Source: a virus
IMG/VR virus record: IMGVR_UViG_3300025162_000200
Span: 1-21,295 of that record
Reading direction: 5' to 3' (one strand)
DNA: 21,295 bases
The notes under the pieces are model-generated. The model searched no databases. It saw nothing but the letters and a program-made list of their open reading frames with translations, and had not been told where the DNA came from. Numbering within the stretch: position 1 is the stretch's first letter; every line of letters begins with the position of its first letter. Position numbers and translations under genes: made by a program. This document shows, one piece after another, positions 2,739 to 12,228 of this stretch.

Positions 2739-3235
2739 TTCGATTTAATTTTAATTATTATTTTTTCTTTAATTCCGCTTTGTTTAATTCCTTCATTTGC
2801 ACGTCTACACCATATGAAATTATCGGGTATCCAATTACTTAAATTTAAATCATCAATTATAACATAATTTTTTATGTTATGTTCTTCAACATATTTTAGA
2901 ATTTCAAATGCTCGACATTTTTCTATCTGTTGCAATGATCTATAATCACTACCCATCAAATTATCAGTAAAATCAGATATTTTAAATTTAACTTTATTCC
3001 ATTCAAATATCTCATTTATTTGTTCTAAATTATAATGATATTTCCAATCCGAAGACAATATTAATATAGGATTAAACATTTCACAAACATCATTTAATAT
3101 TTTCACGCATTTTTTATCAAAAGGATAACAATCATATTTAGGATGCCATCTTTTTTTATTCATAAAATATTGATTAGTAGTCACCATAACATCATCTAAA
3201 TCGATGAACAAATATGTTTGATTATTAAAATTCAT
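2735..3235 (-). CDS. Small HAD-superfamily phosphatase-like protein
   Basis: Predicted HAD-fold hydrolase of 166 aa. Motif I is IDLDDV with the nucleophile and acid pair at D12 and D14. Motif II is the Ser in LSSDW (61-62). Motif IV is IIDD (D128, D129). The lysine or arginine of motif III is probably in EKCRAF (about 106-108). The lack of a large cap and the order of motifs resemble the small HAD domains found in phage and RNA-repair proteins. The substrate cannot be read from the sequence; 3'-phosphate ends of nucleic acid or nucleotides are plausible. A second HAD protein at 5277-5867 shares the LND(V/I)CE...L-S pattern, so the two look like paralogues. First gene of a five-gene leftward unit, 15 nt from its promoter. 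Confidence 0.75.
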   Translation of the reverse strand: MNFNNQTYLFIDLDDVMVTTNQYFMNKKRWHPKYDCYPFDKKCVKILNDVCEMFNPILILSSDWKYHYNLEQINEIFEWNKVKFKISDFTDNLMGSDYRSLQQIEKCRAFEILKYVEEHNIKNYVIIDDLNLSNWIPDNFIWCRRANEGIKQSGIKEKIIIKIKSK

Positions 3236-7649: not shown

Positions 7650-8639
7650 ATGAGAAGTAAAGAAGATATTGAACATCAATATGGCACATTGCCTGACACG
7701 TTAAATTTAAATAAAATAAATACGCTTTTAAATAAGAGTACTAATAAATTTAAATTACTAAATAACGTAAAAGGCGATGTTATCAATTTTCTTTTATCGG
7801 AAAAAATATTATTTGAAGAAGATGTTAAAACATTTATAAATAATAAAGGTGTTGAACAATCAATAAACACCATAAATATTGACAAAAAGTTGATAATTAT
7901 AGTAATTGATGATTACAGTGTTTGGAATAAAAAAAATCTAATTAAAGGAACTGCCGAAAAAATACATTTTGCTTTTGTTAACGAAGGTTATAGAGTTATT
8001 TGGATAAAGAAATTTGAATGGGAAAATACCAATAAGCAAAACGTATTAAAGTCGATGATATTACACTCAATTAACAAAACAAAATTTAGGTATTTTGCTA
8101 GAAATACAGTATGCGAATGTATTAATAATTCCGATTTGAAAGATTTTTTCAATACATCATCATTTTATGGATTTAGATCAGCTTCAACTGCTGTTTGTTT
8201 AAAAGATAAAAAAACTGGAGAAATTTTACAAGCAATGAGTTTTGGTCATCCATATTATGGAAAAGGAAAATATGGTCAAAATTGTGTTGAATGTATTAGA
8301 TCAGCAGGTAAACCACACACGGTAGTAGTTGGTGGAATGACTAAATTAATGAAATTTTTCATTCAAAATTTTGGACATACGTTTGATACTATATTATATT
8401 ATGTGGATGATGCACACCATCAAAATGATTCAATGGATTCACTTGGGTTTACATTTTCACATTTTTCAGGTGGTGGCGTTCATAATGTTTGGAATAAAAC
8501 AGGAGCAATGTTTATGAGAACACCTGCATTGCATAAAGAAATCATGTTTTTTCAAAAAATAGGAGAAATATATGGTGTTCCTGATGTGGGAAATTCTGTA
8601 TTTTTATTTAAAAATGAGTTAATAACTCAGGTAGAATAA
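7650..8639 (+). CDS. Phage Hef/Mom-like protein: degenerate nuclease-like domain plus GNAT-like domain
   Basis: 329 aa. The segment at about 100-140 (EKIHFAFVNEGYRVIWI, then FEW, then KSMILHSI) has the look of the C-terminal end of the Vsr-like nuclease domain in phage Hef-type homing endonucleases. Residues about 147-290 (YFAR, FYGFRSAST, QAMSFGHPYY, VVVGGMTKLMKFFI, YYVDDAHHQND, LGFTFSH) follow the order of the GNAT-like module that accompanies those nucleases and is also related to phage Mu Mom. I cannot see a clean catalytic set for the nuclease, so it may be degenerate or divergent. Either a free-standing mobile endonuclease or a base-modifying enzyme would fit. The family assignment is from memory of sequence patterns. 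Confidence 0.55.
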   Translation: MRSKEDIEHQYGTLPDTLNLNKINTLLNKSTNKFKLLNNVKGDVINFLLSEKILFEEDVKTFINNKGVEQSINTINIDKKLIIIVIDDYSVWNKKNLIKGTAEKIHFAFVNEGYRVIWIKKFEWENTNKQNVLKSMILHSINKTKFRYFARNTVCECINNSDLKDFFNTSSFYGFRSASTAVCLKDKKTGEILQAMSFGHPYYGKGKYGQNCVECIRSAGKPHTVVVGGMTKLMKFFIQNFGHTFDTILYYVDDAHHQNDSMDSLGFTFSHFSGGGVHNVWNKTGAMFMRTPALHKEIMFFQKIGEIYGVPDVGNSVFLFKNELITQVE

Positions 8640-8717: not shown

Positions 8718-10106
8718 ATGACAATCAAACGAATTTTTGACGAAATTGGTAACGAATCTTCCACTAATGAGAAGATGGCAATTCTTTCTAAATATAAAGA
8801 TAATGAATTACTAAAAAGAGTATTATATCTTGCCAATTCAAAACGTGTTAAATTTTATATAAAACAAATTCCAGAGTATACACACCCTCCATTTTTTGTT
8901 GGTGATAATTTATTTGAATTTGGATTGAAATCTGCACTAGATAAATTAGCAGTATTAAGTAATCGAACTATTACTGGTGGTGCTGCAATTCTACATTTAA
9001 AAAATATTTTAGAAGAAAATCCTGATGATATTGCTTATATTATTGAACGTATCATTGAAAAGGATTGCAAAATTGGTATGGGTACACGCAATATTAATAA
9101 AGTGTTTCCAGATTTAATTGAAAAAACAGGTTATATGGGATGTAAACCTTATTCAAAAGAGTTGATTCAGAAATTATTGTTAAAAGGTAAAGCCTATAGT
9201 CAAGAAAAAATGGATGGAAGATTTGTTAATGCAATCATTCAAGGTGGTGAAGTATCTAATGAATCAAGACAAGGCGAACCAACTAATTTGGAAAATCCAT
9301 TATTTTTATCTGAATTAGCACAATTAAAAGATTGTGTGCTAAATGGCGAATTGACAATGGCAGATGTTTCCCGATATGAATCGAATGGAATCATTGCTTC
9401 TTTAATTAGCATTGCTAATAAGAAAGAAAATGGCGAAGATGTATCTAAAGATATTGCCAAATTGGGAAGTAAACACATGCCATATCAGGAAGCGTTATCG
9501 TTAGTTCGATTTACTGCATGGGATATTTTAACAATTGATGAATATTTTAGTAGAAAATGTAAAAGACCTTATAAAGAAAGATTTGAAGAATTAAATCAAA
9601 CATTAAAAGGATTTTCGATGCTGAATGTTGTCGAAACAAGAATTGTTTCAACAATTGAAGAAGTAATGGCACATTTCGATGAAGTTTTAAATAATAATGG
9701 TGAGGGTGTTGTTGTTAAAAGTATGGATGGCGTTTGGGTTGATAGTAAGCCCATCTATCAAGTGAAAATAAAAAATGAAATTAATTTAGATTTACGAATT
9801 ACCGGATTTAATTATGGTACTGGTAAAAATAGTCAATTAATTTCATCACTTAATTGTGAATCTGAAGAAGGTTTATTAAAGACTTCTCCAACGGGAATTA
9901 CGGAAGATGATATGGAATATATTACAAATAATCAGGATAAATTATTGAATTGTATTCTTGAGATTAAATGTTCTGGCATTTCTCAAGATAGTAAAGGTAA
10001 TTATTCACTTTTACATCCAGTATTTAAATTATTGAGAAATGATAAATTGATTGCAAACACATTAAAAGAATGTATTGAAATTAGCAAATCACACACATTA
10101 CTATAA
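8718..10106 (+). CDS. ATP-dependent DNA ligase, T4 gp30-like
   Basis: 462 aa, close to the 487 aa of T4 gp30, with similarity along its length, for example STNEKMAILSKYKDNELLKR near the N terminus. It seals nicks in DNA using ATP. Nucleotidyltransferase motifs in order: motif I EKMDGR with the AMP-accepting lysine K164, motif III LNGEL (208-212), IIIa FTAWD (265-269), IV GEGVVVK (328-334), V VKIK (349-352), then an OB-fold C-terminal domain. The N-terminal 150 residues match the helical DNA-binding domain of gp30. Its own phage-type promoter precedes it. The last 6 bases overlap, tail to tail, the end of the GIY-YIG endonuclease gene on the other strand. A role in phage replication and repair is well supported. 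Confidence 0.92.
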   Translation: MTIKRIFDEIGNESSTNEKMAILSKYKDNELLKRVLYLANSKRVKFYIKQIPEYTHPPFFVGDNLFEFGLKSALDKLAVLSNRTITGGAAILHLKNILEENPDDIAYIIERIIEKDCKIGMGTRNINKVFPDLIEKTGYMGCKPYSKELIQKLLLKGKAYSQEKMDGRFVNAIIQGGEVSNESRQGEPTNLENPLFLSELAQLKDCVLNGELTMADVSRYESNGIIASLISIANKKENGEDVSKDIAKLGSKHMPYQEALSLVRFTAWDILTIDEYFSRKCKRPYKERFEELNQTLKGFSMLNVVETRIVSTIEEVMAHFDEVLNNNGEGVVVKSMDGVWVDSKPIYQVKIKNEINLDLRITGFNYGTGKNSQLISSLNCESEEGLLKTSPTGITEDDMEYITNNQDKLLNCILEIKCSGISQDSKGNYSLLHPVFKLLRNDKLIANTLKECIEISKSHTLL

Positions 10107-10865
10107 TTTAACTGCTGACCAGCCAACATATTTTTCATATTTAGATAGTATTTCTTTTTTCATATACTTATAATTATAAATTGGTTTCCCATTATTATAA
10201 TATGAATTTCTTAACGCACAGGTAGGTAAATTATGTTCATTACATGTCAACTCAAATGTACCGTTACACATGAAAATTAATTTATTATTGTTGTCATATA
10301 TATTAATCCTAATTGCTGCTGGATTTTTCTCACCCACTGATTTACCTAACATACTTTTCGACATTTTCCCTCGTGTTTCTTTTGATAATTTTCGTCCAAT
10401 AAGTGCATTTTTAGCGTTAAGTTTATGTTCTTCTGATTTAGGTATGCCTTTTAAAGATAAAGATTGTTTTAATCTAGTTTCGTCACTTAGTTTAATTCCC
10501 AGTTTAGCATTCCTCATTTTTTCTCTCGATTCATCAGTCAACACATAATCACAGCAATAGCCACCACCAATTGTCATATTATATCCATTTCTATATGAAT
10601 CATAATGTTTAATATAAAATATTTCACGATTATTTACTTCGGGTAAAGAAGATATATTATTTTCCAATATTTCTTCATGAAAGTTTTCAATTCCGTATTT
10701 TTTGAGGGCTAAATGGAATTTAAATTTACTGGCTTTAGTGCTTAAATAAATATGTTCATATCTTCTCAATTCAAATCCTCGACAAGTAAACCCAATATAT
10801 GATTTATTATTAATTTTATTGGTGAATTTATAAATAAGATATATTTTATTTTCAACTCGTTTCAT
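10101..10865 (-). CDS. GIY-YIG homing endonuclease with NUMOD3-type repeats
   Basis: 254 aa. The N-terminal GIY-YIG domain shows IYLIYKFTN (8-16), SYIGFT (22-27), the catalytic-region arginine in FELRRYEH (34-35), the metal-binding Glu in NREIFYI (E81) and the closing NGYNMTIGG. From about 108 to 180 there are three or four repeats of the type T.E...K...A..G, which fit NUMOD3 DNA-binding modules, and then a tail that may carry a DNA-binding helix. This is the layout of the Seg/I-TevI-like free-standing endonucleases of T4-like phages, which cut a target in a related genome to spread. It is on the minus strand with a ribbon-helix-helix gene overlapping its start, and its 3' end overlaps the ligase gene by 6 bp. 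Confidence 0.85.
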   Translation of the reverse strand: MKRVENKIYLIYKFTNKINNKSYIGFTCRGFELRRYEHIYLSTKASKFKFHLALKKYGIENFHEEILENNISSLPEVNNREIFYIKHYDSYRNGYNMTIGGGYCCDYVLTDESREKMRNAKLGIKLSDETRLKQSLSLKGIPKSEEHKLNAKNALIGRKLSKETRGKMSKSMLGKSVGEKNPAAIRINIYDNNNKLIFMCNGTFELTCNEHNLPTCALRNSYYNNGKPIYNYKYMKKEILSKYEKYVGWSAVKL

Positions 10866-11001
10866 TTTTATATTTAATTATTATAGTTTCAATAAATTTT
10901 GATTTATTTGTAATTTTTTTTAATAGCGCATATGCTTCATTAGAAATCGTAATACTTAATTTATTTTTCTTATCTGAATCAATTAATTTTGGTCTGCTCA
11001 T
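10852..11001 (-). CDS. Ribbon-helix-helix (CopG-like) protein, 49 aa
   Basis: A short frame from the ATG at 11001 to a TGA at 10854-10852. After a basic start (MSRPKLIDSDKK) comes a strand KLSITIS (14-20), helix 1 NEAYALLKKI (21-30) and helix 2 SKFIETIIIKY (34-44), the order expected for a ribbon-helix-helix DNA-binding dimer. It overlaps the start of the GIY-YIG gene by 14 nt in another frame, so the two are likely co-expressed and the small protein may control the endonuclease. A 22-bp palindrome lies about 60 nt upstream of its start and is a candidate operator. I see no good promoter of either type for this pair; TATTTATAAG at 11022-11013 on the minus strand is a weak -7 candidate. Confidence 0.7.
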   Translation of the reverse strand: MSRPKLIDSDKKNKLSITISNEAYALLKKITNKSKFIETIIIKYKNETS

Positions 11002-11059
11002 TTATATGTTTTCTTATAAATACTTTGTCAATTGAAAAAATCTTGTTTAAATACTCTTG

Positions 11060-11081
11060 ATATGTAAAATATTTTACATAT
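11060..11081. promoter_or_regulatory. Perfect 22-bp palindrome, candidate operator
   Basis: Half-site ATATGTAAAAT (11060-11070) is followed at once by its exact reverse complement (11071-11081). It lies between the leftward ribbon-helix-helix/endonuclease cassette and the rightward LemA-like gene, and ends 1 nt before the TTTG box of the rightward promoter. A dimeric repressor bound here could affect that promoter. Confidence 0.55.
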
Positions 11082-11082
11082 A

Positions 11083-11115
11083 TTTGTAACAAATTATAAA
11101 AGGATTACGTATAAG
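11083..11115 (+). promoter_or_regulatory. Phage-type promoter for the LemA-like gene
   Basis: TTTGTAAC (11083-11090), 16 nt, ACGTATAAG (11107-11115); the ATG is 27 nt on. It abuts the 22-bp palindrome. The leader TAAATTTAAAATT before the ATG is close to that of the AAA ATPase gene. Confidence 0.75.
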
Positions 11116-11142: not shown

Positions 11143-11682
11143 ATGAAAAGTTTTTTAATTGGATTAGGTGTTTTAGTCTTTGCCGTTACTTTTGCCCTTA
11201 TATGGGGAATTACTTTAAGTAATAGTGAGATTGACATTAAAACTAAAGGATTGGCGCAGCAAAAGAATTGTACTGCTTATTTCGACAAGATGTGGAAAGT
11301 GCTTCAGCAAGATGCAAGTGTTGCTGATCAGTACAAAGAAGCATTTAAAGAAATTTATGTTCCATTGATTGAGGGTCGTTATGCTAAAGGTGATGGTACT
11401 TTGATGAAATGGATTCAGGAAAGCAATCCGACATTTAGTACAGAATCATATACTAAACTTATGACTGCAATCGAAGGTCAGCGTGAAGGTTTCTTTATCG
11501 AACAACAGAAGTTGATTGATATTGACCGTGAGCATAAAAGAATGCGCCAATCATTTCCCAATAGTATGATTATTGGTAAACGTCCTGATTTGAATATTGT
11601 TGTTATTACGTCAGCAAGAACCAATGATGCAAATAGTACTGGTCAGGATAATGATGTTGATTTGTTCAAAAAAACCAAGTAA
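11143..11682 (+). CDS. LemA-like membrane-anchored protein
   Basis: 179 aa. One N-terminal membrane helix (about 4-24) is followed by an SNSEIDIK segment and then long amphipathic helices to about residue 145 (CTAYFDKMWKVLQQ, YKEAFKEIYVPLIEGRY, LMTAIEGQREGFFIEQQKLID), and a short polar tail. This is the layout of LemA: a short N terminus, one membrane anchor and a helical bundle. LemA function is not well defined; bacterial members are often encoded beside TPM-domain membrane proteins, and a large membrane protein with a possible TPM-like region follows at 12229. Codon use differs visibly from the neighbours (more G and C, CAG for Gln, CGT for Arg), which suggests high expression or a different origin. 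It has its own phage-type promoter. Confidence 0.65.
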   Translation: MKSFLIGLGVLVFAVTFALIWGITLSNSEIDIKTKGLAQQKNCTAYFDKMWKVLQQDASVADQYKEAFKEIYVPLIEGRYAKGDGTLMKWIQESNPTFSTESYTKLMTAIEGQREGFFIEQQKLIDIDREHKRMRQSFPNSMIIGKRPDLNIVVITSARTNDANSTGQDNDVDLFKKTK

Positions 11683-12083: not shown

Positions 12084-12203
12084 GTTTGGGTGGCGGAACG
12101 GGTAGATTCAAGAAGGGCGGAATGCAAATAACCAAGCAGAGGGGTTCGATTCCCTGATGCGTAGGTCTAATCTTGAATGCAGGTTCGAGTCCTGCTCCAA
12201 ACA
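12084..12203 (+). tRNA. tRNA-like element, Leu-like 5' half, with a 57-nt insert in the anticodon loop
   Basis: Acceptor strands GTTTGGG (12084-12090) and TCCAAAC (12196-12202) pair over 7 bp with one G-U, followed by discriminator A12203 and no encoded CCA. TGGCGGAACGGGTAGA after the acceptor matches the D-arm region of leucine tRNAs (TGGCGGAATTGGTAGA), but the D stem pairs poorly (GCG with TTC). The T arm GCAGG-TTCGAGT-CCTGC (12179-12195) is perfect. The anticodon stem would be TTCAAGA (12107-12113) with TCTTGAA (12171-12177). Between them lie 57 nt instead of 7. That insert contains a second T-arm-like hairpin, GGGG-TTCGATT-CCCT (12141-12155). No anticodon can be named safely. It may be a tRNA with an insertion, a tRNA relic or a tRNA-like end of the upstream RNA. 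Confidence 0.5.
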
Positions 12204-12228
12204 CAAGTATTAATTAAAAACAAATATC

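Follow-up and report, generated by a model that had tools for sequence, protein, structure and literature searches.

The overlapping genes for a 49-aa ribbon-helix-helix (RHH) protein and a homing endonuclease likely constitute a self-regulated homing cassette at the 3' end of a phage DNA ligase gene, in which an RHH autorepressor and its promoter would be kept constant while the nuclease can be exchanged. Judged from its recurrence in related records, the gene pair is not an isolated case but a member of a large family of phage cassettes. The window analysed here is the whole 21,295-base virus record (73% AT), and its features around the cassette are listed in Table 1.

Table 1. Features of the cassette and of its surroundings, in window positions
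Feature	Position	Strand	Basis
ATP-dependent DNA ligase gene, 3' end as cassette insertion place	8718..10106	+	phrog_114 (8.5e-104)
Homing endonuclease gene, GIY-YIG/NUMOD3, 254 aa	10101..10865	-	ORF list, Pfam, phrog
RHH (CopG-like) gene, 49 aa, proposed autorepressor	10852..11001	-	ORF list, family alignments, CopG profile match
TATTTATA box immediately 5' to the RHH start codon side, likely promoter element of the cassette	11015..11022	-	role inferred
Candidate RHH operator: half-site ACAAGATTTTT plus partly symmetric GAGTATTTAAACAAGA	11036..11056	-	position and half-sites shared with relatives
Promoter-like CTTG-N19-TATATTTG of the virion-protein gene	11056..11086	+	promoter pattern scan, consensus in the available part of PMC6847099
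Perfect 22-bp palindrome, read as promoter spacer	11060..11081	none	palindrome scan, copies in relatives
Gene of a 179-aa protein, phrog_1383 'virion structural protein'	11143..11682	+	phrog match

The gene pair and its relatives

The ORF coordinates agreed with the preliminary description in that the RHH gene overlaps the endonuclease gene by 14 nt (10852-10865); the endonuclease gene in turn overlaps the convergent ligase gene by 6 nt. The intergenic region is 141 nt long with an AT content of 85%, and the neighbouring gene beyond it, previously called LemA-like, has no Pfam support for that name, its match being to phrog_1383.

In the endonuclease, the NUMOD3 motif PF07460 was detected with 29.9 bits against a cutoff of 20.4, and GIY-YIG (PF01541) with an E-value of 0.092, under the Pfam cutoff that is passed by the family relatives L074 and L295. 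The protein also matched the homing endonuclease family phrog_314 at 1.7e-31, as well as phrog_5123 ('GIY-YIG motif'). By these profile matches it is a homing endonuclease with a NUMOD3 motif, probably a GIY-YIG enzyme. A second homing-endonuclease-like gene (phrog_3339) lies at 7650-8639, and no match to the RHH family was found in front of it in the window search. On the other side of the cassette, positions 12084-12204 contain tRNA-like parts, with acceptor-like ends, D-arm-like and T-arm-like stretches, and possible anticodon-stem halves TTCAAG/CTTGAA about 59 nt apart with a second T-arm-like stretch between them; this stretch was reported by neither ARAGORN nor Rfam and the fold stability of the region was not above that of shuffles.

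The 49-aa protein by itself had no Pfam match. The profile of its family matched the solved CopG (PDB 2cpg/1b01) with an E-value of about 0.004 (0.0038 for 2cpg), and the relative at L189 scored above the Pfam RHH_1 cutoff. An AF2 model of the monomer alone had a pLDDT of 87.5 and showed two helices with no strand assigned; a Foldseek search with this model gave no PDB match. CopG is an autorepressor.

Relatives were sought by RHH sequence only, disregarding the neighbouring genes, which yielded 34 and then 50 loci in partly overlapping sets, and a whole-record search found RHH matches in 10 of 13 records, with up to 10 in a single one. When the 126 matches were counted as distinct by their last 100 nt, 81 RHH genes were obtained, 19 of them occurring solely as the first of a tandem pair and 62 preceding another gene. 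An overlap with the following gene was seen for 51 of these 62, and for 8 others the gap is at most 10 nt. The next gene codes for a nuclease in 53 cases, as judged by profile match or homology, some of these assignments being by homology to a scanned relative and not by a scan of their own. Sixteen of the nucleases are GIY-YIG, 27 are HNH or endonuclease VII type, 9 belong to the phrog_559/681 kind with DUF723-type repeats and one is a LAGLIDADG enzyme (L080, PF14528 at 9.2e-16). Four further RHH genes precede full-length genes without firm assignment (L059, L275, L286 and L291), and the other five precede a fragment or another gene (L058 plus strand, L068, L073, the first copy in L263, and L064, where it is a terminase). 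The earlier proposal that the RHH protein and the homing endonuclease form one unit is thus upheld, as the pairing recurs; since the seeds of the search came from endonuclease-linked RHH genes, the linkage applies to this family and not to all RHH genes. Tandem RHH pairs before one nuclease were observed at L023, L062, L063, L067, L079-L083, L264-L266, L275-L277, L285 and L289-L295.

When loci were fetched by endonuclease similarity, a family RHH accompanied only 2 of 107 related GIY-YIG ORFs, and in L086 a homologous endonuclease lies at the ligase site with no RHH gene in front; therefore, endonucleases of this kind do not generally need the RHH protein. No credible relative was found in deposited phages by tblastn with three of the RHH proteins, five deposited phage records that have related endonucleases contained no match to the family profile (best E-value 1.4), and none of 393 pattern stretches from bacterial and archaeal genomes was confirmed as an RHH relative.

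The ligase site and exchange of the nuclease

When ligase loci without a cassette (L216, L225 and L171) were compared with loci carrying one (L189, L203 and L086), filled and empty sites differed by the cassette and by the last 46-66 nt of the ligase gene. As the similarity between ligases ends at this distance before the stop codon, the cassette appears to bring its own ligase end. No empty twin of the window's own site was found, and the comparison is one between relatives. A convergent cassette was present in at least 13 of 80 ligase loci, and of 9 filled relatives tested, 2 had displaced remnants of the ligase C-terminus on the far side of the cassette, with 45 aa at 82% in L085 (2511-2729) and 115 aa at 59% in L023 (1532-1885); the window has no such remnant. 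In L203 and L085 there are small genes outside the RHH family, that of L203 matching RHH models below the cutoff.

Two pairs of loci reveal what may change within a cassette. In L074 and L076 the DNA could be aligned up to position 3137 in both, that is, up to the nuclease start, and the alignment resumes from 3704 and 3824, respectively. The shared DNA is 83-84% identical and encodes the same RHH core, whereas the nucleases, GIY-YIG in L074 and endonuclease VII type in L076, do not align. At the ligase site, the nucleases of L051 (endonuclease VII type) and L055 (GIY-YIG) are likewise unrelated, with identities of 99% in the outer flank, 86% in promoter plus RHH gene and 82% in the ligase. 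As read from these alignments, in both cases only the nuclease is exchanged.

This retention bears on two other roles that could be imagined for the RHH protein. As an antitoxin-like inhibitor, it would bind the nuclease and keep it harmless. Small RHH proteins are common antitoxins, and weak matches to Pfam CcdA were obtained for 7 of 23 members of the family. However, the specificity for one toxin family that marks an antitoxin was not found, as closely similar RHH genes precede unrelated nucleases, which is hardly expected of a direct inhibitor, and a protein of about 50 aa would leave little room for a separate toxin-binding tail, so this role is improbable. Alternatively, the RHH protein could be a subunit for DNA targeting, by which the nuclease is led to its homing site. 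That it is kept at one site while the nuclease changes would fit such a guide, but it would need to make contact with several unrelated nuclease folds, and the endonuclease of L086 occurs without an RHH gene. Retention of one RHH with different nucleases speaks against both an inhibitor specific to the nuclease and a targeting subunit, and the latter is hardly to be expected either.

The palindrome and the candidate operator

In the preliminary description, the 22-bp palindrome was taken as a possible operator of the RHH protein, by which a mobile element might control its own cassette and a neighbouring phage gene. The palindrome, ATATGTAAAATATTTTACATAT, is exact as described and is the sole one in the window with arms of at least 8 nt. 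Among 400 dinucleotide shuffles of the window (73% AT), 17 reached an 11-nt arm, as did 7 among 5000 shuffles of the 85%-AT intergenic region; thus, the palindrome stands out where it lies but is no extreme case in the window as a whole. Its perfection, its location 59-80 nt upstream of the RHH start and its rarity for the intergenic region all favour an operator role, and through its overlap with the neighbour's promoter a bound RHH protein could reach the neighbouring gene: the palindrome begins right after CTTG and ends within TATATTTG, filling the spacer of CTTG-N19-TATATTTG. This arrangement has the form TTTG/TANNTTTG, given as the promoter consensus of Bacteroidetes in the available part of PMC6847099. 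Five promoter-like sites were found in the window compared to a mean of 2.65 in 20 shuffles, so single sites are uncertain, and among 269 distinct promoter-like sites in the loci covered by the scan, this is the only one with a palindrome arm above 7.

The distribution of the palindrome points the other way. It was not carried by other RHH cassettes in the comparison of their upstream regions; there were no exact copies elsewhere in the viral collection, and it is a single copy in the window even at up to 3 mismatches. Further copies do exist in the record of L011, where the 44% homologue of the gene at 11143-11682 in the window has a 2-mismatch copy in the same promoter spacer, 60 nt before it, and where a second 2-mismatch copy occupies the same spacer position in the promoter of an 84-aa protein gene. 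These two, in one record, were the only 2-mismatch copies among the records of 26 relatives; at up to 3 mismatches, 4 of the 26 records had a copy compared to 2 for a reversed-pattern control. The 8.5-kb locus L011 has no RHH-family match (best E-value 0.47) and no cassette within 4 kb of the homologue. The presence of the palindrome in relatives lacking the cassette, named beforehand as evidence against an operator, is therefore nearly what L011 offers, except that an RHH cassette lies elsewhere in that record, as two RHH matches in tandem, some 7 kb away from the homologous gene. That cassette has a different upstream sequence and a different candidate operator, and its distant RHH protein could in principle bind the palindrome copies in trans.

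With near-copies in two phage promoters and an L011 locus without RHH, the palindrome was rejected as a part of the cassette. It is probably a feature of the neighbouring phage gene's promoter and not the operator of the cassette, and control of that gene by the mobile element through the palindrome is unlikely.

A better candidate operator, on the basis of place and relatives, is the stretch 11036-11056. A TATTTATA-like box was found upstream of most of the RHH genes compared, and 5' of it most RHH upstream regions contain half-sites such as ATACTACTTTT; RHH cassettes carry half-sites of the ATACGAYTTTT type at the place equivalent to 11036-11056. Pairs of half-sites are inverted in L055 and L081 and direct in L070 and L260. 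A count of palindromic columns anchored on the box gave a weak signal because the half-sites differ in spacing and orientation, and a motif test was run next. The 61 upstream regions were reduced to 42 by removal of 5 near-duplicates and of 14 that belonged to the first member of a tandem pair or to a fused or non-cassette RHH gene; the half-site motif was trained on 22 of the 42 and tested on the 20 that came from a later search. It was detected in 14 of the 20 held-out regions at p ≤ 0.05 and in 18 at p ≤ 0.1, each compared to its own shuffles, values that may be inflated by common descent since the held-out regions are related to the training ones.

The window's site reached p = 0.02, but as a member of the training set. 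Its half-site ACAAGATTTTT (11036-11046) is weak, with a score of 9.2, and scores of at least 8.5 occur 19 times in the window compared to 11-22 times in five shuffles; as such a score is not rare by itself, the site was assigned by its position and by comparison with relatives. Of 50 ligase 3' ends without a cassette, 2 had the motif at p ≤ 0.05, which is not above chance, so that the motif accompanies the promoter of the cassette and not the presumed cut site, a further point against an RHH protein that targets the nuclease. As the -33 element of the neighbouring gene (11056-11059) directly adjoins this candidate operator, some effect on that gene is possible.

Proposed mechanism and comparison with known systems

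The above data are best explained by a free-standing homing cassette, made up of the RHH and endonuclease genes and lodged at the 3' end of the phage ligase gene, whose RHH protein would act as dimers on half-sites of the ATACGAYTTTT type, often paired, just upstream of the TATTTATA promoter element. Bound RHH would keep transcription of the two overlapping genes low irrespective of the type of nuclease, regulator and promoter being the constant part and the nuclease the exchangeable one. We infer DNA binding and repression by the RHH protein, and likewise that the nuclease would cut the ligase gene. More tentatively, and at slightly less than even odds, the promoter with one or two RHH genes may serve as a standard front end into which at least four nuclease classes have been plugged by recombination.

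The arrangement resembles the CopG-RepB operon of plasmid pLS1, in which an RHH protein of about 45 aa is encoded first, before a DNA-cutting initiator, with autorepression of the joint promoter; in contrast, that operon serves plasmid copy control and the partner is a replication initiator and not an exchangeable nuclease. In restriction-modification systems, the gene of a controller (C) protein, a small autoregulator, is located upstream of the nuclease gene and coupled to it. The upstream autoregulator and the paired operator sites are features proposed for the present cassette as well, but C proteins are helix-turn-helix proteins and are paired with restriction enzymes.

Among phage homing endonuclease genes, I-TevI represses its own promoter via its own DNA-binding domain, some free-standing T4 genes carry or displace promoters and seven free-standing T4 ones are called promoter-less cassettes (PMC2988022). 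These share with the present case the phage homing endonuclease and, for I-TevI, the repression of the own promoter that is proposed here, although no separate regulator gene is described in the available part of that source. At a given phage locus, an endonuclease of one class can take the place of one of another class (PMC10448857), a swap of nucleases comparable to the one described here, but the available part of that report mentions no retained regulator gene and promoter. An endonuclease VII type homing family has been described (PMC6083498, available in part). An RHH regulator coupled to homing endonucleases was the subject of none of the papers found, as judged mostly from search results.

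Transcriptional and translational regulation of free-standing homing endonucleases was named an area of ignorance in the available part of the T4 review PMC2988022. The question to which the present model speaks is how a phage is spared harm from the free-standing homing endonucleases in its own genome. The model is directly testable, as it concerns a small protein and short DNA sites. If the front-end reading is true, new homing endonucleases would inherit a ready-made dosage control, and some phage records would hold several such units. A dedicated regulator working with exchangeable nucleases would, if true, be a general answer to how homing endonucleases avoid such harm.
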